From Nitrosarchaeum sp. (GTDB lineage: Archaea; Thermoproteota; Nitrososphaeria; Nitrososphaerales; Nitrosopumilaceae): a DNA stretch of 12,402 nucleotides. How positions within the stretch are numbered: position 1 is the first letter of the stretch; each line of letters opens with the position of its first letter. Below are positions 3,788 through 12,402 of the stretch, piece after piece. The position numbers and the translations under genes are program-made. The notes beneath the pieces are model-generated. The model did not search any database. It was not told the origin of the DNA and saw only the letters and a list, made by a program, of their open reading frames with translations. Location of the stretch: NCBI GenBank assembly GCA_013140415.1, contig JABFSW010000049.1, forward strand, positions 1 to 12,402, given 5' to 3'.

Positions 3788-4570
3788 TCATCTTGTTCTG
3801 TTTTTTTGTACTGCTCTATTTGCAATATTTGCTGCTATCGCACCAGCTGCAATTCCGTTGTCTATGTTGACTACTGATAATCCCAATGAACAACTTTGCA
3901 GCATTGATGCAAGGGCCGCAATTCCTTTTCCACCATAACCATATCCCGCCGATGTAGGTATTCCAATTACTGGAATATCTACCATTGATGAAACCAACGT
4001 TGCTAGCGCTCCTTCCATTCCAGCAGCTACAATTATACAATCTACTTCATCTCCTATCATTTTTTTCAAAATTGGAAAAATTCTCTGAATTCCTGCAACT
4101 CCTACATCGTAACTAGAAATGCATTTGCAATTCATTGCCTCACACATCAACCTCGATTCTTCAGCAACTCCTATGTCTGATGTTCCAGCTGTAAGTATGC
4201 CTATTTTCCCACCCTCAAATTTTATTGGGTTTTTAAAAAGTAATATTGTTGATGAATTTTTTCCAGTTTTGACTTTCACTTTTAATTTTTTTGCAAACGA
4301 TAAAATTTTTGAATAATCACCTTTATTGATTCTTGAAACTACAACTGAGTTTGTTTTCTCTAGTGTTTTTTTAATTATTTTTTTAATTTCATCTAATTTT
4401 TTAGTTTCTGCAAAAACTACTTCTGGTATCCCTTTTCTTTTCCTTCTATTTATGTCGATTTTGGCAATGCCTTCTATTTTTTCAATTGAATATAGTGATA
4501 ATAGCTTTTTTGCATTATTTACTGAAATTTTTCCTTTTTCCAGAGACTCTAAAATTTCATGAATTTCCAA
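3788..4570 (-). CDS. larB: LarB, pyridinium-3,5-biscarboxylate mononucleotide synthase (NPN cofactor)
   Basis: LarB carboxylates the pyridinium ring of nicotinic acid adenine dinucleotide at C5 and hydrolyses the phosphoanhydride, the first step to the nickel-pincer nucleotide. The 260 residues show a variable N-terminal helical domain (1-115) and a PurE/AIR-carboxylase-like C-terminal domain. Family signatures are GILTAGTSDIGVAEE (124-138), AAGMEGALATLVSSMVDIP (182-200), IGIPTSAGYGYGGKG and SMLQSCSLGLSVVNIDNG. C227 in MLQSC matches the position of the catalytic cysteine in characterised LarB. Length is normal for the family. The start is TTG at 4570. The in-frame stop upstream is the mdh TAA itself, and the nearby ATG is out of frame. 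It lies 33 bp behind mdh on the same strand, so the two are probably cotranscribed. The other Lar genes are divergent, beginning at 5611. Confidence 0.93.
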   Translation of the reverse strand: MEIHEILESLEKGKISVNNAKKLLSLYSIEKIEGIAKIDINRRKRKGIPEVVFAETKKLDEIKKIIKKTLEKTNSVVVSRINKGDYSKILSFAKKLKVKVKTGKNSSTILLFKNPIKFEGGKIGILTAGTSDIGVAEESRLMCEAMNCKCISSYDVGVAGIQRIFPILKKMIGDEVDCIIVAAGMEGALATLVSSMVDIPVIGIPTSAGYGYGGKGIAALASMLQSCSLGLSVVNIDNGIAAGAIAANIANRAVQKNRTR

Positions 4571-4603
4571 TGATATTTCATATTTATTTGAATAAAAAAA
4601 TGC

Positions 4604-5518
4604 TTAGATTTGTATGCCTGAAATTGCACTCTTTACACTTTGTACTCCAGTATCAAATACCTGTCTTTCTTCAGCATTTAGTTCTAACTCGATTATTTTT
4701 TCAATGCCATTCTTTCCAATTACTGCTGGAACTCCTATTGTTACATCTGAATGACCATATTCTCCATCAAGATATGTTGCAACAGGTATCACTTGTTTTC
4801 TATTTCTTACCACTGATTCAATCATTGCAGAAATTGCATTTCCTGGTGCATGTACTGTTGCACCTTTTAATTCGATAACCTTGGCTGCAACTTGTTTTGT
4901 GTTTTGGACAAGTTCATCTACTTTTTGTTTTGGAAGAAGTGAAGAAAGTGGAATTCCTGAAACTGAGGAGAATCTTGGTAGAGGTAACATATTTTCACCA
5001 TGTTCTCCAATCACAAGCGCTCTAATGGAATCACGAGAATGTCCAGTGGCTTCATGTATAAATTGCTTGAATCTGGATAAATCTAACATTCCACCCATTC
5101 CAAATATTCTGCTTCTATCAAATCCTGAAACCTTGTAAGTAACATATGCCATTGGATCAAGTGGATTTGTCACCGGAATTATCATAGAATCATTGGCATA
5201 TTTTTTGATATTTTCTACAACGCTTTTAACAACAGTTGCATTAATTTTTAAAAGATCCATTCTTGTCATTCCTGGTTTTCTTCCAGAGCCTGCTACTACT
5301 ACTACTATATTGGAACCTTTCATATCTGCAAAATTATTTGAACCCTTTACTTCTACATCAATTCCTTGTTCTGATAACATATGATTGATATCCATTGCTT
5401 CACCTTGTGGTAACCCCTCTGCAACATCAAGTAATAATATTTGATCATCTAATCGCTTTAATGCTGAAAATAAAGCTGCATCTCCACCAACTTTTCCTGA
5501 ACCTATTATTGTAATCAT
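4604..5518 (-). CDS. mdh: Malate dehydrogenase (LDH/MDH superfamily)
   Basis: This 304-residue NAD(P)-dependent 2-hydroxyacid dehydrogenase interconverts malate and oxaloacetate in central carbon metabolism. Visible motifs are the Rossmann loop [11 protein letters not shown] (5-15), Asp31 at the end of the second strand (favouring NAD), [12 protein letters not shown] (79-90), TNPLDPMAY (117-125), LDLSRF with the Asp-Arg pair (145-150), and the catalytic His in [10 protein letters not shown] (171-180). Arg80 just before KPG is the residue that marks malate specificity; lactate dehydrogenases have Gln there. The ATG at 5518 leads straight into the nucleotide-binding strand and follows a TATA-like element at leaderless spacing. 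It precedes larB by 33 bp and faces larC across 92 bp. This links it to a nickel-pincer cofactor locus and suggests, by inference only, that the NPN client may handle malate or a related acid. Confidence 0.92.
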
Positions 5519-5540
5519 AAATTGAGCTGTTGATTTTCAA

Positions 5541-5548
5541 TAATTAAA
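5541..5548 (-). promoter_or_regulatory. TATA-like element of the mdh-larB unit
   Basis: The minus strand reads tttaatta, centred about 27 bp before the mdh ATG at 5518, so transcription would start at or next to the start codon. It shares the 92-bp divergent spacer with the larC promoter, so a regulator binding between 5519 and 5610 could control both arms of the locus. Confidence 0.4.
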
Positions 5549-5580
5549 TCTAATGAAGTTTTTTCTCTATTTAGATAGAA

Positions 5581-5588
5581 TTTATATG
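5581..5588 (+). promoter_or_regulatory. TATA box of the larC-larE-desulfurase operon
   Basis: The element tttatatg is centred about 26 bp before the ATG at 5611. No Shine-Dalgarno sequence lies between them, which predicts a leaderless larC message. Confidence 0.5.
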
Positions 5589-5610
5589 CATTTTTAGTAA
5601 TTTTCAATCT

Positions 5611-6843
5611 ATGGTTGTTGTTATAGATCCTCAAATTGCAGGCATATCTGGTGATATGCTTCTTTGCTCTTTAGTGGATCTGGGTGCAAATAAAGTCAAA
5701 ATTCTTAACGGTATTAAACTATCTGAAAAATTTCTACCAAATTCCATCATTAAACAAATTGACTTTAGAAAAATCGAGAAACATGGTATAGAAGCGACTG
5801 CACTATTTTTAGAAATTGATGAAAATGTTCATGAACGAAAGGGCATTGAAATAAAAAAAGCAATTATGGATTTAGCAAAAGAGATTGGTCTTTCTAATAG
5901 AGCAAAAGTTTTTGCAGAATCTTGTATTGACACACTAATTTCTTCTGAATCAAAAATTCATGGTATCCCTATAGATTCGGTTCATTTTCACGAGGCATCT
6001 AGTATTGATACTTTGATAGATATTGTTGGAATTGCAATCGCAGTAGATGATTTAGGTATGTTTGATGAAGAAATTATTTGTATGCCTATTGCAGTAGGTG
6101 GAGGAAACATGACTTTTTCCCACGGTACTATGTCTAATCCAGCAAGTGCTATTCTTGAAATCTTAAAAAATTCTAGATTATCGATTTATGGTGGTCAAGT
6201 AAAAGATGAATTGACTACTCCTACGGGCGCTAGTATTCTTGTAAATCTTTCAAAAACTTCCATGGATTATTATCCGTTAATGCAGATAACCTCTATTGGT
6301 TATGGTGCAGGAAAAAAAGACTTTGATGAATTTTCAAATGTGTTAAAGATTGTAAAAGGAACCCAAAAAAATAATTTTCAATTAGATTCTGTTAAAATTC
6401 TAGAAACAAATGTTGATGATGTATCTGGAGAAATCATGGGCAATCTAATTGAAAAAATTATGAATACAGGCGCCAAAGATGTTTCTATTTACCATGGTAT
6501 TACAAAAAAAGGAAGACCAACAAATCTCATATCTGTAATTTGTGATGATGCTTTTGTACATGAAATTATGGATATCTTGGTAATTGAAACTGGAACTTTG
6601 GGAATTCGTGTAACCACTTCAAATCGTTTCATCATTCCAAGAACAACTCATGACGTTAAATTAATTCTTGATGGAAAAGAATTTGTAGTAAAATACAAAG
6701 TTTCATCCTTTAAAGGAAAAAACAACTTCAAAATTGAATTTGATGACTTAAAATTAATTGCAAATACATTAAACAAGTCAATAAAGGAAACAGAATCATT
6801 GATTAGAACAGAAATTATGCAATTAGGTATTGATTATGGCTAA
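5611..6843 (+). CDS. larC: LarC, nickel-inserting NPN cofactor synthase (DUF111)
   Basis: LarC inserts nickel into pyridinium-3,5-bisthiocarboxylate mononucleotide in a CTP-dependent reaction, completing the nickel-pincer nucleotide. The 410 residues carry the family marks in order: IDPQIAGISGDMLLCSLVDLG (5-25, start of the family), VHFHEASSIDTLIDIVG (124-140), PIAVGGG then SHGTMSNPA, TTPTGASIL (202-210), ETNVDDVSGE (265-274) and KKGRPTNLISVICDD (299-313). Length is typical of the full protein. The reading frame is continuous, so the frameshift between LarC1 and LarC2 known from Lactobacillus is not needed here. It is the first gene of the plus-strand operon, and its last 8 bp overlap the larE start, which suggests coupled translation. 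His and Asp residues in the HFHE and VDD motifs are plausible nickel or nucleotide ligands, inferred from conservation. Confidence 0.93.
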   Translation: MVVVIDPQIAGISGDMLLCSLVDLGANKVKILNGIKLSEKFLPNSIIKQIDFRKIEKHGIEATALFLEIDENVHERKGIEIKKAIMDLAKEIGLSNRAKVFAESCIDTLISSESKIHGIPIDSVHFHEASSIDTLIDIVGIAIAVDDLGMFDEEIICMPIAVGGGNMTFSHGTMSNPASAILEILKNSRLSIYGGQVKDELTTPTGASILVNLSKTSMDYYPLMQITSIGYGAGKKDFDEFSNVLKIVKGTQKNNFQLDSVKILETNVDDVSGEIMGNLIEKIMNTGAKDVSIYHGITKKGRPTNLISVICDDAFVHEIMDILVIETGTLGIRVTTSNRFIIPRTTHDVKLILDGKEFVVKYKVSSFKGKNNFKIEFDDLKLIANTLNKSIKETESLIRTEIMQLGIDYG

Positions 6844-7633
6844 ACTTGATAACCTCATTGATTGGTTTGGAAACAAAACCAAGGTGATAGTTGCTCTTTC
6901 CGGTGGAGTAGATAGTGCACTTGTAGCATATGCTGCATTTCAAAAATTAGGGCATTCTGCAATAGCAGTTACTGCTGACTACAAAACTTTATCAAAAGAG
7001 GAACTTGAAACAGCCAAACAAATTTGTTCAGAGATAGGAATAAAGCAAATTCTTTTAGATTATGACGAGCTTCAAAATGAAGAATTTGTTAAAAATGCAT
7101 CTGATCGTTGTTTTCATTGCAGAATGGAGTTAGGTGATCATTTGATTACTCTGGCAAAAGAACATGATGTTAAATTTATTGTAGATGGGACTAATTTGGA
7201 TGATTTAGGTGATTATAGACCTGGAATTGAAGCATTAAAAAGAAATGGTATTAGAAGTCCATTGGTAGAAACCAATTTTACAAAAAATGACATTAGAAAA
7301 ACTGCAAAACTGATAGGATTGTCCATATATGATAAACCATCTAATTCTTGTCTAGCATCACGTATTCCTTGGGGACAAAAAGTCACAACTGAAAAATTAA
7401 CTAGAATAGAATTAGGAGAAACAATTGTTAAACAAATTACAAATTTAAAACAAGTTAGAGTTAGAGATCTTAATGGAGTTGCTAAAATTGAAGTGGATAA
7501 AGATAAAATTTCTGTTTTTGAGGATGGCATTTTAGATGAAATAACTGGCAAATTAAAATTAATTGGATTTTTATCAGTTAAAATCGATCCAGATGGGTAT
7601 AGACCAGGAAAAATTAACGTGATTACAGATTGA
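6836..7633 (+). CDS. larE: LarE, ATP-dependent sulfur transferase of NPN synthesis, three-Cys type
   Basis: LarE adenylates the two carboxylates of the LarB product and converts them to thiocarboxylates. Counting from the ATG at 6836, the 265 residues show the PP-loop SGGVDS (22-27), Cys92 and Cys95 in RCFHCR, the DGTNLDDLGDYRPG loop (117-130), and Cys172 in SNSCLASRIPWG. Cys172 falls at the site of the sacrificial Cys176 of Lactobacillus LarE. The extra CxxC gives three cysteines, the set used by [4Fe-4S]-dependent LarE proteins that carry a labile sulfide. A TTG at 6830 would add two residues. The ATG is preferred because aggt at 6825-6828 lies 7 bp before it and could act as a weak Shine-Dalgarno. 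It overlaps larC by 8 bp and the next gene by 4 bp. The adjoining desulfurase is the likely sulfur donor. Confidence 0.92.
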   Translation: MAKLDNLIDWFGNKTKVIVALSGGVDSALVAYAAFQKLGHSAIAVTADYKTLSKEELETAKQICSEIGIKQILLDYDELQNEEFVKNASDRCFHCRMELGDHLITLAKEHDVKFIVDGTNLDDLGDYRPGIEALKRNGIRSPLVETNFTKNDIRKTAKLIGLSIYDKPSNSCLASRIPWGQKVTTEKLTRIELGETIVKQITNLKQVRVRDLNGVAKIEVDKDKISVFEDGILDEITGKLKLIGFLSVKIDPDGYRPGKINVITD

Positions 7634-8790
7634 TCTATCTTGATAATGCGGCATCAACACAAATTCATGAAGATGTCTTAGAAGCAATGCTGCCCTATCT
7701 TAAAGAACAATATGGCAATCCTTCTTCCATACATCGTTACGGTAGATTAGCCAATAAAGCTATAGAAAAAGCTAGAAAACAAATTGCTATGTTGATTAAT
7801 GCAGATTCTTCTGAAATTTTACTTACTTCCGGTGGAACTGAATCCAATAACACTGCACTTTATGGAATTGCAGAGAAAAAACCTCATTCTCAAATAATTA
7901 CTTCATCTATTGAACATGATGCTATACTTGAACCATGTAAAAAATTAGCCAAAGATGGGTTTGATGTAATCTATTTACCTGTTGATACTCATGGGGTAGT
8001 GAATCTATCTGTTCTAAAAAACTCTCTCTCTGATAATACTTGTCTTGTTTCAATTATGTTTGGAAATAATGAAATGGGAACAGTAGAACCTATTGCCCAA
8101 ATTGCTCAACTATGTAATGAGCAAAATATTCCATTTCATACAGATGCAGTTCAAGCTGTTGGAAAAATCCCAATCGATGTTAAAAAATTAGGTGTAGATT
8201 TACTTTCAATATCCTCCCATAAAATTAATGGACCAAAAGGAATTGGGGCATTATACATTAGAAAAGGAATTGACATTAATCCAATTATTTTAGGAGGAGG
8301 TCAAGAACATGGTTTACGTTCAGGCACTGAAAATGTAGCAAATATTGTGGGATTTGGAAAAGCATGCGAACTTGCTAAACTCAATTTATCTGATAATATC
8401 TCTCACATGAAAAAACTTCGTGATTATCTTGTTGCAAAAATTCTCAGAGAAATCCCAAGTGTTATTCTTAATGGCCATGTTGAAAATCGGTTACCAAATA
8501 ACGCTCATTTTACTTTTCTTGGAGTTGCTGGTGAAGATTTGATTATAAAGTTAGATGAATATGGTATAGCTGCATCAACTGGTTCTGCATGTTCAGTGCA
8601 TACACAAAAAGCCTCTCATGTTTTACAGGCTATGGGATTTTCACATGAACAAATTACTGGTTCGTTAAGATTAACACTTGGGTTATTTAACAATCAACAA
8701 CAAATAGATGAAACAGTGAACATATTAAAAAAAGTGACAGCAGAACTTCGTTCGGTTTCACCATTTAAAGAAAAATATTCTTTTAACTAA
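7630..8790 (+). CDS. iscS: Class I cysteine desulfurase (IscS/NifS family)
   Basis: This PLP enzyme removes sulfur from cysteine as an enzyme-bound persulfide. The 386 residues include the typical beginning MIYLDNAAST, TSGGTESNN (66-74), His96 stacking on PLP (SSIEHDA), TDAVQAVGK with Asp172 and Gln175, the Schiff-base lysine Lys198 in SSHKINGPKG, LRSGTENV (229-236), and catalytic Cys321 in STGSACSVHTQKASH. Length and motif order are normal. The start is TTG at 7630, whose last two bases are the first two of the larE TGA stop (TTGA overlap). The protein then begins exactly where the family does, and translation is probably coupled to larE. Position as third gene of the larC operon suggests it feeds LarE or rebuilds its iron-sulfur cluster, though it could also serve general Fe-S or tRNA thiolation needs. 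It converges with the next gene, leaving 3 bp between stops. Confidence 0.93.
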   Translation: MIYLDNAASTQIHEDVLEAMLPYLKEQYGNPSSIHRYGRLANKAIEKARKQIAMLINADSSEILLTSGGTESNNTALYGIAEKKPHSQIITSSIEHDAILEPCKKLAKDGFDVIYLPVDTHGVVNLSVLKNSLSDNTCLVSIMFGNNEMGTVEPIAQIAQLCNEQNIPFHTDAVQAVGKIPIDVKKLGVDLLSISSHKINGPKGIGALYIRKGIDINPIILGGGQEHGLRSGTENVANIVGFGKACELAKLNLSDNISHMKKLRDYLVAKILREIPSVILNGHVENRLPNNAHFTFLGVAGEDLIIKLDEYGIAASTGSACSVHTQKASHVLQAMGFSHEQITGSLRLTLGLFNNQQQIDETVNILKKVTAELRSVSPFKEKYSFN

Positions 8791-8793
8791 ATT

Positions 8794-9591
8794 CTAAATA
8801 CGCATCTGAAATTTATTTTTTGTAACAAATATTGTCGTTATAATTCCTATTGCCAAAATCATTATTGCAATTGTGCCAAATTCTGGAATTATGGTAGTGC
8901 CTATTATTTCAATATCTGAATCACCTTGTTCAAAATTGATCGTAATTACTCTTGAATTTGAATCTGTTATGGTTTCTTGGTATGGTGCTTCAATTCCATC
9001 TATTATTATTATGAATATATCATCTGTTTCATCTTGTTTTTTTGCATCTAGTGCGTATCTTGGAATCTCTAATGAAATAGATCCATCATCAGTAGATTCT
9101 ATTATTACTATTAATGCAAAAATCTCTTCGTCTACCAACATATTTTTTACAGTTCCGCCTTCTATGGAATATTCTACATCAAATGTGCCATGATTGCCCG
9201 CATCTACTTCAAATGTTTTTGTTTCAGATGTTTCTGTTTTTGGTGAAAAAGTAAATTGAGTTTCTGCAATGTTTCCTTCCCCAAATGATACTCTTATTGT
9301 GTATTCACCTGCTTTAGACCATAGAGGACCTTCTGCTCTCACTGTATGTGAATAATTACCGTCTTCTGCTACTGTAATCTGTGCAATATCTACTAAATTA
9401 TCTTGGCCGAAAATTTGCATTGTTACAGGAGTACCTGTTATGATGGTACTTACTTTGCCAGAAATTACTATGGTTTCCCCCTCTTTATAGGAATTAGCAT
9501 CTGTTTCTACAGAAATTAACGATTCTGCAAAAGCTGGTAAAGTAAAAACCATTAATAAAATTAAAACTCCGGAAATAATTTCAATCTTCAC
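8794..9591 (-). CDS. PEFG-CTERM surface protein with Ig-like beta domain (protein 1)
   Basis: This 265-residue exported protein has a signal peptide (1-22, likely cleavage after AFA). A beta-rich domain (about 28-110) runs from ETIVISGKV to GPLWSKAGEYTIRVSFGEG. A second domain (about 135-232) starts at VEYSIEGGTV and ends at IEIIGT. The PEFG-CTERM signal follows: PEFG at 236-239, a hydrophobic helix and the basic end TKNKFQMRI. PEFG-CTERM is a predicted sorting signal of thaumarchaeal surface proteins, thought to be processed by an archaeosortase-like enzyme. Both domains resemble those of the protein encoded at 9661-10509. The tail DNA, however, has diverged from the 125-bp tail shared by the next two proteins. 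The start is GTG at 9591, since the nearby ATG runs into a stop at once. A TATA box at 9612-9619 implies a leaderless message. Ligand and role are unknown. Confidence 0.82.
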   Translation of the reverse strand: MKIEIISGVLILLMVFTLPAFAESLISVETDANSYKEGETIVISGKVSTIITGTPVTMQIFGQDNLVDIAQITVAEDGNYSHTVRAEGPLWSKAGEYTIRVSFGEGNIAETQFTFSPKTETSETKTFEVDAGNHGTFDVEYSIEGGTVKNMLVDEEIFALIVIIESTDDGSISLEIPRYALDAKKQDETDDIFIIIIDGIEAPYQETITDSNSRVITINFEQGDSDIEIIGTTIIPEFGTIAIMILAIGIITTIFVTKNKFQMRI

Positions 9592-9637: not shown

Positions 9638-9762
9638 AAAAAATGAAAAAAGTTGTGAATTTAGTATCTTGGCATAATGCTTAGTCTTGATTTTGCAGAT
9701 ACTGCAATTATTGATATAATTGCTACTGCTAGAATCATAACTGCGATTGTACCAAATTCTGG
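9638..9762 (-). repeat. 125-bp perfect direct repeat, copy A: PEFG-CTERM tail module
   Basis: Positions 9638-9762 match 11446-11570 at every base. On the coding strand the block starts with the proline codon of PEFG. It runs through 33 codons of transmembrane helix and tail to the TAA, then 23 bp of A/T-rich 3' flank. The first mismatch (9763 versus 11571) is the wobble base of the Ile codon just before PEFG. Confidence 0.9.
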
Positions 9763-10509
9763 GATTACGAAAGTACCTACTACTTCAATTTTTTCAGCGC
9801 CTGCTGGGAACATTATTGTGACTTCATTGCCATCAATTTCCACATCATTCCATTCTTGTCCATCCACAAGTACCATAAAGATACCGCTAAGGATTGATTC
9901 GTCTGGGGTTAATGTGAGTGTTCCATCTTCATCTGCACTAATTCTAATGATAATTGAGTTATCATTATTGTTGATGCTTGCACCAGTTACCATCCCACCT
10001 GAAATACTGTATGGTACACAATAACCGTCCTTTAGATCTATCTCTGAAGAACTACAATTGTCTGATATAGCTGAAGCTTCACCAGTTAATTCAACAAGTG
10101 CTTTGTTATTTTGAGAAGCCCCATAGTTGACTTTAATGGTGTATGTACCATCACGTTTCCACAATCCACCTTCTGTATTTAGAGTCGTTTCAAAACTACC
10201 ATCATTACCAACATCTATCTGAGCAATTGTAACGACAGAGTTTAATGGACTCGTAACAGTAAGTATTACTGGAAATCCAGAAACATGTGCTACTTTGCCT
10301 TGTACCAAAATTTTGTCATTGTGATCATAGGTTGTTCTATCTGTCCAAACAGATACTGGCATATCCATAAGCAACATTTGATTTGCTGCCATTCTTCCAT
10401 CATCTGCTTCTTCACAACCCACACATGCTTGAGCATATGCTGATGACATGGTTAAAGTACCGACTGCAGTCAAAACGGCTAATAGCGCGAACGACGTACG
10501 GTTGTTCAT
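9661..10509 (-). CDS. PEFG-CTERM surface protein with two beta domains and four cysteines (protein 2)
   Basis: The 282 residues begin with a signal peptide (1-26, likely cleavage after AYA) and a mature N-terminus QACVGCEEADDGR with a CxxC. An Ig-like beta domain (about 55-130) holds KILVQGKV, DVGNDGSFETTL and GGLWKRDGTYTIKVNYG. A second domain (about 150-245) holds YSISGGMVTG, ADEDGTLTL, MVLVDGQEW and AEKIEVVGT. PEFG (250-253), a hydrophobic helix and the end AKSRLSIMPRY follow. Protein 1 has the same two-domain plan without the cysteines. The second cysteine pair (NCSSSE and DGYCVP) could form disulfides outside the cell. The ATG at 10509 starts a normal signal peptide and follows a TATA box with a leader of about 12 nt. 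The 3' end is the 125-bp module shared with protein 3. The function is unknown; surface layer, adhesion or binding roles are possible. Confidence 0.85.
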   Translation of the reverse strand: MNNRTSFALLAVLTAVGTLTMSSAYAQACVGCEEADDGRMAANQMLLMDMPVSVWTDRTTYDHNDKILVQGKVAHVSGFPVILTVTSPLNSVVTIAQIDVGNDGSFETTLNTEGGLWKRDGTYTIKVNYGASQNNKALVELTGEASAISDNCSSSEIDLKDGYCVPYSISGGMVTGASINNNDNSIIIRISADEDGTLTLTPDESILSGIFMVLVDGQEWNDVEIDGNEVTIMFPAGAEKIEVVGTFVIPEFGTIAVMILAVAIISIIAVSAKSRLSIMPRY

Positions 10510-10542
10510 CTTATTTGCGAATTGGACCCATCTCTATTTATG

Positions 10543-10552
10543 TATATTTAAA
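10543..10552 (-). promoter_or_regulatory. TATA box of PEFG-CTERM gene 2
   Basis: The minus strand reads tttaaatata within an A/T-rich stretch. It is centred about 38 bp before the ATG at 10509, giving a short leader of roughly 12 nt without an obvious Shine-Dalgarno sequence. Confidence 0.5.
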
Positions 10553-10633
10553 AAAGATTCTGTGTAATTCAGGGGGGTTAGATCAAGTTCTTCTCTGTGT
10601 TTACTGTCGTGGTCTTAAAAATTGTTAATAGGT

Positions 10634-10650
10634 GTTTTATTTAATAAAAC
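10634..10650. terminator. 17-bp A/T palindrome at the end of the HEPN-like gene
   Basis: The arms gttttatt and aataaaac surround a single central T. It lies at the 3' end of the minus-strand gene that stops at 10650 and could mark transcript ends, but low-complexity A/T sequence makes chance likely. The rest of 10510-10649 shows only the promoter of gene 2 and a run of six G residues near 10572. Confidence 0.2.
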
Positions 10651-11321
10651 TAAATCAAAGCCCCATCTGAGTTAAATCGGGTTCCACAATAGAATAATTT
10701 TGATTTTGGTAATGGGGTTAAACTATCCATAATCAATTCACCGTCACCTGTATAACTTACAGATAGATTAACCCAATTCTTTTTGTCGAGGAAAATATCT
10801 GGTTTTTCTATATGTTGTGCATAATATGCCATACAATGGATAGAATAAACTGCACATAATGCATATAATGTGTTCTTTAGATTCCCTTGTTTGAATCCAT
10901 CTGGAAGATCATGTTTTGTCTCATTATAGCCTGTCCACCAAAATGGGGCTCTCTCAGATTGTAGTTCTAATGGAGAATATGATTTTGATATATCTCTAAA
11001 ATCAATTTTTTTAAGAAGGATCCACTGTGTTGATAAAATTCCATTTTTATTGATTGGATTGTAATAAGAGAAAAAATTAGGTTTTGTATTTTGTTTATCT
11101 GGATTTGTATATTTAAATCCAAATTTATCGCAAATTAATCTTAACATATTTTCAACTTGCCCACATGACATTTGAAGAATACTGTATAATCTTGGAGAAT
11201 AGGTGTCATCCGTATTGTCAAGTGGGATAATCCGAGTTAATTCAATAAACTGTGTTTCAATATCATAATAGAAATTCAGCATTCTATTTCGTTTTAATTG
11301 AAATTGCATTGGATTGAGCAT
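10650..11321 (-). CDS. Hypothetical protein with HEPN-like YNxxKHD motif
   Basis: The 223 residues have no signal peptide or membrane helix, so this is a cytoplasmic protein among exported ones. The C-terminal half has FWWTGYNETKHDLPDGFKQG (127-146) followed by the helix LKNTLYALCAVYSIHCMAYY (148-167). This arrangement, a WW then YN-x2-KHD and a long Ala/Leu helix, recalls uncharacterised HEPN-superfamily proteins. Some of those are RNases or abortive-infection factors. The first half is helical, with SPRLYSILQMSCGQVENMLR (42-61). The last 40 residues are not recognised. Met1 at 11321 is used, but Met5 and Met14 are also possible. Its beginning overlaps, in another frame, a transposase remnant, and its promoter would lie inside that remnant. 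The gene was therefore probably brought in or stranded by a mobile element. The family call is by pattern and tentative. Confidence 0.6.
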   Translation of the reverse strand: MLNPMQFQLKRNRMLNFYYDIETQFIELTRIIPLDNTDDTYSPRLYSILQMSCGQVENMLRLICDKFGFKYTNPDKQNTKPNFFSYYNPINKNGILSTQWILLKKIDFRDISKSYSPLELQSERAPFWWTGYNETKHDLPDGFKQGNLKNTLYALCAVYSIHCMAYYAQHIEKPDIFLDKKNWVNLSVSYTGDGELIMDSLTPLPKSKLFYCGTRFNSDGALI

Positions 11322-11439
11322 TTTGAATTACTGTAATCCATTTATTCTTGCCTCTTATTTCAATTCCTGCTTTATCGGCTGGGGTTTTACCGTCTAATGC
11401 CATGTGGGTTCTGATGAAGTCAAATCTCAGATTACACAT
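11284..11439 (-). pseudogene. C-terminal remnant of a DDE-type transposase
   Basis: On the minus strand, 51 codons from ATG 11439 to TAG 11284-11286 include RFDFIRTHMALDGKTPADKA and GIEIRGKNKWITVIQNA. This matches the C-terminus of DDE transposases/integrases (FIRPHMAL-GKTPAEKAGI, then G-NKW--LI--A). The catalytic Asp-Asp-Glu core is missing. Homology begins within a few codons of 11446, where the 125-bp PEFG module starts, so the gene was cut there. The end of the remnant overlaps the start of the HEPN-like gene in a different frame. No terminal inverted repeat was found nearby. The exact IS family is not certain. Confidence 0.75.
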
Positions 11440-11445
11440 AATCTT

Positions 11446-11570
11446 AAAAAATGAAAAAAGTTGTGAATTTAGTATCTTGGCATAATGCTTAGTCTTGATT
11501 TTGCAGATACTGCAATTATTGATATAATTGCTACTGCTAGAATCATAACTGCGATTGTACCAAATTCTGG
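11446..11570 (-). repeat. 125-bp perfect direct repeat, copy B: PEFG-CTERM tail module
   Basis: This is the partner of 9638-9762, at an offset of 1808 bp with no mismatch. On its left side it abuts the transposase remnant, whereas copy A is flanked by the promoter of gene 1. The flanks are unrelated, so the identity is not part of a longer duplication. Confidence 0.9.
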
Positions 11571-12323
11571 AATTACAACACCGTCTTTTATTCCGACTTC
11601 AATAGAATACTTGTATTTAGGATCGTCACCTTGTTGAGCTACAATTGTGTACTGACCATCTTGATTCCATAATGGACCTCCAGTTGTAATGTCTTTAAGA
11701 AAATGACTATTTGTATCTAGAATTGGTGCAAATTGATCAACAACAACTACGTTTCCATTTGGTGCTATTACTTTAATCGTGATAGAATTAGCACTGTCTG
11801 TAGTTCCCATTATTGTAATTATGTTAGATCCTGCCATTGCATTTGATTCTTTAATCATCAAGCCTTTTCTTTCTGTAGGTTTTGGTTCAAAAAATCCTGT
11901 TTCTAAATTGGATTCAGTTACATCTGTTTCTGAAGTCATACCATTGATTATTTCAACACGAAGTGATGCTTTATACAATGAACTTCCATGTGGACTTTGT
12001 TCAACTTTAATTGTATAAAATCCACTCTCTTTCCACATTGGATTTACTTTGAATTCTGTGGCAAAGTCTCCGTTTGCATCAGGTGTTAATTGACCGACAC
12101 TAATTACATTTAGACTAGGAGAAATTACTGTAAACGTTATGTCTGTGATTTGTGACATTGTATGTCCACTCACTGATATAGTGTCTGAACCTTCTGAGGC
12201 CATAGCTGAAACTGACATTCCTGTCTCTTGAGCAAAAGCATTCTGTTGAATTGAAGTTATTGAAATTATTGACAATGCTATTAGGGCTAATGTCACTGAT
12301 GTTGTTGAACGTTTAAAACTCAT
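11469..12323 (-). CDS. PEFG-CTERM surface protein with two Ig-like beta domains (protein 3)
   Basis: The 284 residues have a signal peptide (1-31, likely cleavage after AFA) and two related beta domains. The first (about 44-112) contains DTISVSGHT, GQLTPDANGDFATEF and MWKESGFYTIKVEQS. The second (about 163-235) contains NIITIMGTT, VVVDQFAP and GGPLWNQDGQYTIVAQQG. PEFG (252-255), the transmembrane helix and the end AKSRLSIMPRY follow. The domain type is that of the first domain of proteins 1 and 2 (beta strands, then a W--xG-YTI motif), but here it occurs twice and the other domain type is absent. No cysteines are seen. From the P of PEFG on, the DNA is identical to that of gene 2, while the ectodomains are clearly different. 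The ATG at 12323 follows a TATA box with a leader of about 6 nt. The protein is probably exposed at the cell surface; its binding partner is unknown. Confidence 0.85.
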   Translation of the reverse strand: MSFKRSTTSVTLALIALSIISITSIQQNAFAQETGMSVSAMASEGSDTISVSGHTMSQITDITFTVISPSLNVISVGQLTPDANGDFATEFKVNPMWKESGFYTIKVEQSPHGSSLYKASLRVEIINGMTSETDVTESNLETGFFEPKPTERKGLMIKESNAMAGSNIITIMGTTDSANSITIKVIAPNGNVVVVDQFAPILDTNSHFLKDITTGGPLWNQDGQYTIVAQQGDDPKYKYSIEVGIKDGVVIPEFGTIAVMILAVAIISIIAVSAKSRLSIMPRY

Positions 12324-12358: not shown

Positions 12359-12381
12359 ATTTTTAAAAAGAGAAAAAAAGA

Positions 12382-12402
12382 TGAATTTAGTATCTTGGCA
12401 TA
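12382..12402 (-). repeat. Third copy of the PEFG tail module, cut by the window edge
   Basis: The last 21 bases match 9656-9676 and 11464-11484 exactly. The sequence to the left (12370-12381) is similarly A-rich but not identical, so this copy shares less of the 3' flank. Confidence 0.75.
12387..12402 (-). CDS. Last codons of a fourth PEFG-CTERM protein (5' part outside window)
   Basis: A minus-strand TAA at 12387-12389 is preceded by codons for Met-Pro-Arg-Tyr, the same four last residues as proteins 2 and 3. Together with the identical 21 bp of DNA, this makes a further PEFG-CTERM gene beyond the right edge very likely. Only four full codons are visible, so nothing can be said of its outer domains. 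Its stop lies 64 bp upstream of the start codon of gene 3, the same head-to-tail spacing as between genes 2 and 1 (69 bp). Confidence 0.6.

Follow-up and report, generated by a model that had tools for sequence, protein, structure and literature searches.

Concerted evolution of the sorting tails of neighbouring PEFG-CTERM surface genes in Nitrosarchaeum and related archaea

The duplicated block and its gene array

Two neighbouring genes for PEFG-CTERM surface proteins in Nitrosarchaeum sp. end in the same DNA, which raises the question of how paralogs with different ectodomains come to share a 3' end that includes non-coding sequence. The window analysed here is the whole of contig C81 (12,402 nt) from a fragmented genome (G000; 213 contigs, 84.5% complete), and it ends within a third copy of the tail. 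The identity over 125 bp between positions 9638-9762 and 11446-11570 that had been claimed in a preliminary description of this DNA holds base for base, with mismatches at both ends, and a repeat comparison of the window also recovers the two blocks as a 138-nt pair with 97% identity. An exact match of 125 bp is far beyond chance. Read on the minus strand, each block runs from the proline codon of PEFG (9760-9762 and 11568-11570) to the stop codon (9661-9663 and 11469-11471) and 23 nt beyond. It comprises the final 34 codons of a PEFG-CTERM gene, with the stop (102 nt in all), followed by a T-rich stretch of 23 nt. In archaea, T-rich tracts act as terminators. The further claim that the block starts exactly at the proline codon is true of this pair; across the pairs with identical tails, exact matching continues upstream of that codon for 0-15 nt (Nitrosarchaeum set and G020) or 4-21 nt (G022). 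The third copy at the contig end, which was absent from the preliminary description, was identified as the end of gene C from repeat D5, from a match at 12366-12402, and from the same layout with a complete C in relatives.

All three complete PEFG-CTERM genes of the window (D, A and B) pass the curated TIGR04296 cut-off of 25 bits at their C-termini (Table 1). The ectodomain of gene B has a weak MG2-like match (Pfam MG2, E 8.7e-5, under its cut-off). The tail of gene D differs from that of gene A at 36 of 93 nt in the window genome, and a tail search of the same genome finds 7 places, the unlinked ones of which differ. The cognate sortase (TIGR04297) is encoded at G000:C29:6090-7007; it is present as one copy each in 15 of the 18 genomes of the genus and is absent from three incomplete ones. 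Sortase matches to Pfam PF09721 were all below threshold (8 of 18 genomes), and it was TIGR04297 that settled the matter. Elsewhere in the window, genes for LarB, LarC and LarE of nickel-pincer cofactor synthesis adjoin a malate/lactate dehydrogenase-type gene and a gene for a NifS-like cysteine desulfurase (3788-8790), and positions 311-1525 encode a protein that carries seven thrombospondin type 3 repeats and, towards its C-terminus, a hydrophobic stretch. In the part of the source consulted, thrombospondin type 3 repeat proteins are reported, along with PEFG proteins, to be more abundant under peroxide exposure (PMC6593220).

Table 1. Features of the PEFG-CTERM array and of the insertion within it (window coordinates)
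Feature	Position	Strand	Description
Gene D	8794..9591	-	PEFG-CTERM surface protein, 265 aa; TIGR04296 41 bits (cut-off 25); tail diverged, not homogenised in this genome
Gene A	9661..10509	-	PEFG-CTERM surface protein, 282 aa; TIGR04296 50.4 bits, residues 248-277; open reading frame
Gene A homogenised block	9638..9762	-	Sorting tail 9661-9762 (102 nt with stop) and 23-nt T-rich 3' flank 9638-9660; from exact identity and column index
Gene B	11469..12323	-	PEFG-CTERM surface protein, 284 aa; TIGR04296 49.3 bits
Gene B homogenised block	11446..11570	-	Sorting tail 11469-11570 and 23-nt T-rich 3' flank 11446-11468; exact 125-bp identity
Gene C 3' end	12364..12402	-	Stop codon at 12387-12389, preceded by the final 13 coding bases (12390-12402) and followed by a C-type flank; truncated by contig end
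Insertion between B and A	10556..11443		888 bp; 14-nt terminal inverted repeats (one mismatch and an end difference)
DDE transposase C-terminus remnant	11314..11430	-	Inside the insertion; aligns with residues 328-366 of the G011 transposase (72% identity)
223-aa ORF	10650..11321	-	Inside the insertion; no Pfam or NCBIfam family

Relatives in the Nitrosarchaeum group carry a tandem PEFG-CTERM array with the transcription order C-B-A-D. The order C-B-A is identical in 13 of the 13 genomes, other genera included, in which A, B and C are labelled on one contig (12 complete-array genomes and G019, with labels assigned by similarity). The ectodomains of A, C and D are distant homologs of each other, and that of B is of a different type, being unlike A over most of its length (G013). 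The array was not found in G007 and G008. G009 has two different arrays, one resembling that of G004 and the other that of G012, and its assembly may be a mix of two populations.

Concerted evolution of the tails and its boundaries

The tails of the linked copies evolve in concert, and they do so between definite boundaries. Divergence was compared in 12 genomes whose A, B and C genes are all complete, 11 from the genus group of the window and one (G020) from another genus. The permutation left out G000 (where C is cut), G003, G005, G009, G009x and G010, and G000 was added for A and B in the boundary, control, private-change and tail-tree analyses. The mean difference between tails of the same genome is 0.5 (A-B), 1.67 (B-C) and 1.83 (A-C) of 102 nt, whereas orthologous tails of different genomes differ by 6.59 (A), 6.38 (B) and 5.18 (C) of 102 nt. 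When genomes were permuted, 0 of 100,000 permutations gave a value as low as that observed for each of A-B, B-C and A-C; with each close clade represented by a single genome (9 in total), values this low came from 2, 12 and 12 of 362,880 permutations, counts that include the true pairing. The C tail lags in G012 and G020, with 6-8 differences.

The synonymous difference (pS) between A and B tails is 0.012 within genomes versus 0.190 between them, while the A-C ectodomains have values of 0.697 and 0.700, respectively, indicating that the duplications are old and that the tail alone has been renewed. A recent full-length duplication of one gene followed by fast divergence of the ectodomains would suit a one-family tandem array in which the ectodomains of A, C and D are distant homologs, but the A-C ectodomain value, a gene order shared even with other genera, and the difference between B and A along most of their length leave this explanation next to no probability. 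The preliminary description had itself named two findings that would speak against its proposal, recent full-length duplicates and equally high synonymous identity in the ectodomains; both were looked for, and neither was seen. The paralogs are closer within a genome than the orthologs are between genomes, and the duplication predates the compared species, as the 13 of 13 genomes with C-B-A and the ectodomain pS indicate. Both are marks of concerted evolution. In addition, AU tests reject the trees that keep the tails of one gene as a clade (p = 8.4e-7 for A, 0.0038 for B and 0.00055 for C). The unconstrained tail tree is weakly resolved, with 3 of 18 branches starred and bootstrap support not settled.

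The 102-nt tails of G000, G011 and G013 are identical despite differing ectodomains. Transfer of tails between species was considered as the source of this identity; the test of the G002 and G011 clade, which lies on one side of a branch of the tail tree (support 77/76), gave no conflict, so ancestral retention is enough to account for tails that are identical between genomes.

The private changes follow the same genome from gene to gene. Private changes in the A tail recur in the same genome in B (15 of 17) and in C (10 of 17), and of 204 comparisons with the B tails of other genomes, 1 shows a private A-tail state. B of the same genome carries 2 of the 3 changes that are private to A in the non-coding flank; in the reverse direction 1 of 9 private B changes is common to A, a count that adds no support, with 7 of the 8 misses coming from the G014 flank, which is shifted in register. 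Mosaic flanks and a partial tract also occur. The B flank of G014 has a C-type start and is then B-type, the C flank of G004 has 23 nt of A/B-type and is then C-type, and the D tail of G054, from another genus, agrees with the neighbouring tails over 61 nt before breaking away, with 20 differences beyond position 60.

The excess of paralog identity within over between genomes is approximately zero in the ectodomains, sets in at PEFG, and climbs within the tail. For A-B this excess drops to zero about 17-23 nt past the stop codon, and for the pairs that contain C it ends near the stop codon because the C flank is of another type. Upstream of the tail, A and C are 82% alike at -45..-31, yet this region has no within-genome excess. 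A-B is the most uniform pair and has the longest shared stretch, and homology length may set the conversion rate. Within-genome differences fall in the first 17 nt of the tail in 14 of 48 cases versus 135 of 1286 ortholog differences; this clustering at the 5' edge is only suggestive, as the pairs are not independent.

The uniformity of the tails could also be ascribed to purifying selection alone, acting on the protein and on the nucleotides, for instance through codon usage, RNA or the function of the terminator. Between genomes the tail is conserved (pN 0.012-0.018), the orthologous A, B and C tails have a between-genome pS of 0.17-0.19, below that of their own ectodomains (0.30-0.37), and a single sortase family (TIGR04297) serves the signal. 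The low pS of the orthologous tails indicates an additional role for synonymous constraint or for between-species exchange, and within-genome gene conversion alone does not explain it. However, the sites at which the paralogs of one genome agree are precisely those that distinguish orthologs of different genomes. Furthermore, gene D and an unlinked B-like paralog (its orthology taken from search matches, not from a tree) bear the same sorting signal and are free to vary. The D tail has a pN of 0.159 and a pS of 0.380 and lacks any excess of within-genome identity (permutation share 0.10-0.26 over its first 36 nt, 0.61-0.91 over the remainder), and a search for conversion between the array and the unlinked paralog detected none (permutation share 0.36-0.56). 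Sortase recognition alone consequently does not demand identity, and selection as the only cause is very improbable.

The explanation that best accommodates these results, with a probability of about 0.93, is recurrent gene conversion limited to the sorting tail and terminator of linked PEFG-CTERM genes. The neighbouring genes C, B and A share an end made up of the PEFG sorting signal, a transmembrane helix, a basic tail, the stop codon and a T-rich terminator. The copies would overwrite one another repeatedly via short-tract, non-reciprocal homologous recombination, leaving them uniform within each genome. The tract would be bounded where homology stops, which is upstream at unrelated or long-diverged ectodomains and downstream at the promoter region belonging to each gene. 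The ectodomains would escape conversion and evolve as separate orthologous lines. Gene conversion had been one of two alternatives offered in the preliminary description, and the agreement of paralogs within genomes at synonymous and non-coding sites, over a tract that begins at PEFG, strongly supports it. The comparisons show concerted evolution, its boundaries, its restriction to linked copies and its spread in the family; the agent (probably homologous recombination of the RadA type), the donor copy, and whether uniformity is selected on account of the single sortase or follows from closeness and homology are matters of inference.

Spread, insertions and rearrangement of the array

Homogenised tails are spread widely in the family. 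The closest pair of tails is within 3 of 102 nt in 30 of the 34 genomes with at least two comparable tails, which represent 13 genus groups; the four genomes without homogenisation are G018, G045, G049 and G103. This survey leaves out G009, G009x, G010, the D tails of the Nitrosarchaeum-group set, and any tail whose length is other than 102 nt. On average, tails of one genome differ by 4.0 (with the four exceptions counted), tails of congeneric genomes by 5.0 and tails of different genera by 20.6, and the small gap between the first two values is due to the four exceptions and to the many close relatives sampled in the genus of the window. Arrays have 2-5 tails. Four or five tails are identical or 1-2 nt apart in G022, G041, G075 and G088, and the ectodomains of these genomes are mostly 25-57% identical at the protein level.

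The window is a 12.4-kb contig of a genome in 213 pieces and ends inside a third copy of the repeat, and a repeat that was collapsed or consensus-corrected during metagenome assembly could give identical tails. The same pattern is present in single-contig genomes (G001, G002 and G020), and hence it is not an artefact of the fragmented window assembly. It is also found on contigs of 90-620 kb from independent records, and the five tails of G022 are all within 1 nt of one another. An assembly artefact is thus extremely unlikely as the source of the pattern.

Genes B and A of the window are separated by an insertion flanked by the 8-bp direct repeat TTAAAAAA (10548-10555 and 11444-11451, plus strand). 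The B-A gap of the close relative G013 is 63 bp and lacks the insertion. The 223-aa ORF is the probable cargo of this insertion. The DDE_Tnp_IS240 domain (PF13610) is found above cut-off in the inserts of G011 and G014, and the window insertion retains a 39-residue remnant only. An 8-bp target duplication is present, with TTTTTTAA on both sides at B-A and CTTTTTAA at C-B (read from the flanks). IS6/IS240-type elements make 8-bp target duplications. The tails that flank a 4.4-kb insertion between B and A in G014 and a 3.9-kb insertion between C and B in G011 are identical, indicating that such distances, or insertions this recent, leave uniformity intact.

As a separate observation, seven inserts of about 220-4400 bp lie at the same place between PEFG genes in six genomes (window 10556-11443; L080 4146-8550; L077 5870-9750; the B-A and C-B gaps of L082; the B-A gaps of L070 and L083). 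Their ends are related to GATTCTGTGTAATC, and their 8-bp T-rich target duplications are found directly downstream of a terminator and ahead of the following TATA-like box. In G011 and G014 the inserts encode a DDE_Tnp_IS240 transposase with a SWIM finger, and that of G014 also encodes a Fic protein and a response regulator. Genus-wide, 12 of the 14 matches to the insert-end pattern are in the array, a count to be read with the fact that the pattern was itself derived from inserts in the array. Insertions seem to land preferentially in the array. Scars of about 30 bp with ends resembling inverted repeats occur at the same junctions in G001, G015, G017 and G012 (L067 5408-5513, L081 5871-5976, L083 6156-6258, L078 4010-4101) and are perhaps decayed or internally deleted insertions.

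The tails may also mediate rearrangement. G003, which is 99% complete, has C and D, and orthologs of A and B were not found in it. The 60 nt located 3' of its C gene match A-type flanks at up to 93%, versus at most 62% for B- and C-type flanks. This arrangement is best explained by a deletion through a tail-to-tail crossover between C and A, which would leave exactly such a junction. The same C-to-A-flank junction is present on contig C84 of G009; this contig is short, the genome holds a second array, and the junction may be an assembly artefact.

These junctions, together with the variable number of tails per array, bear on the other alternative of the preliminary description, a cassette system in which recombination through the tail would place different ectodomains on a constant anchor, giving surface variation. 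The order and orthology of the ectodomains are stable, the A-C ectodomains have no within-genome excess of identity or mosaicism, and silent ectodomain copies were not seen in the stretches read. Exchange of ectodomains between loci, as expected of an antigenic-variation cassette system, was accordingly not detected in this comparison. Moreover, the ectodomain is wholly upstream of the tail, so a crossover in the tail removes or duplicates genes and does not exchange ectodomains between loci. The cassette system is unlikely for these reasons, and the proposed swapping is not supported; a weaker form of it survives in the tail-to-tail crossover of G003. A broader proposal, that the tail serves ammonia-oxidising archaea across the family as a recombination module through which arrays are shortened, lengthened and re-joined (as in G003) while each protein retains its anchor for the single sortase and the uniformity is itself selected, is conceivable but on balance doubtful.

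Significance and known systems

Gene conversion confined to the tail would act on a natural part of a protein, a 34-codon sorting and anchor signal with its terminator, and would do so repeatedly across a family. The hosts are abundant archaea that are hard to manipulate, and the tails offer a tractable natural measure of short-tract recombination in them. The PEFG tails are unsuitable for tracing orthology. They also raise the question of whether a uniform sortase substrate is selected or whether uniformity is a by-product of nearness and homology. The TIGR04296 and TIGR04297 models describe the PEFG-CTERM signal and the thaumarchaeosortase enzyme, not homogenisation at the DNA level. A search of the open literature, which most subscription journals lie outside, returned nothing linking PEP-CTERM or Nitrosopumilaceae with concerted evolution, and PEFG-CTERM itself is mentioned there in two papers.

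A survey of 26 concertedly evolving prokaryotic genes describes recurrent gene conversion over long times (PMC6053082). In the portion consulted, that survey treats genes as wholes, unlike the tail-limited PEFG case, and a word search of its main text gave no Thaumarchaeota or CTERM signals (PMC6053082). A closer likeness is found in mtrA-1 and mtrA-2 of Methanococcales and Methanomicrobiales, tandem paralogs in which, according to the sections seen, one domain is homogenised per species by long-lasting gene conversion (PMC4632066). Both cases involve archaeal tandem paralogs with one part homogenised and the other part different, and both were approached with similar tests, namely paralog versus ortholog identity and a rejected topology. 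In mtrA, as far as those sections go, it is the soluble enzyme domain that is homogenised and the transmembrane part that differs (PMC4632066), whereas in the PEFG array a 34-codon sorting signal and transmembrane tail is homogenised with its terminator, in 3-5 genes, and large ectodomains differ.

The babA/babB and homA/homB genes of Helicobacter pylori are likewise surface paralogs with divergent front parts and with 3' segments that are alike within a strain, which the excerpt consulted ascribes to concerted evolution, with gene conversion between loci (PMC3960876). Unlike the PEFG genes, the bab and hom genes are described there as encoding bacterial outer-membrane proteins of one species, with chimeric and expression-switching alleles (PMC3960876). 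The PEFG array, in contrast, has an archaeal sortase-type signal and stable ectodomains, and its homogenisation recurs across genera. Domain-limited concerted evolution is thus already known from mtrA and babA/babB, and the PEFG tails add a variant to it.
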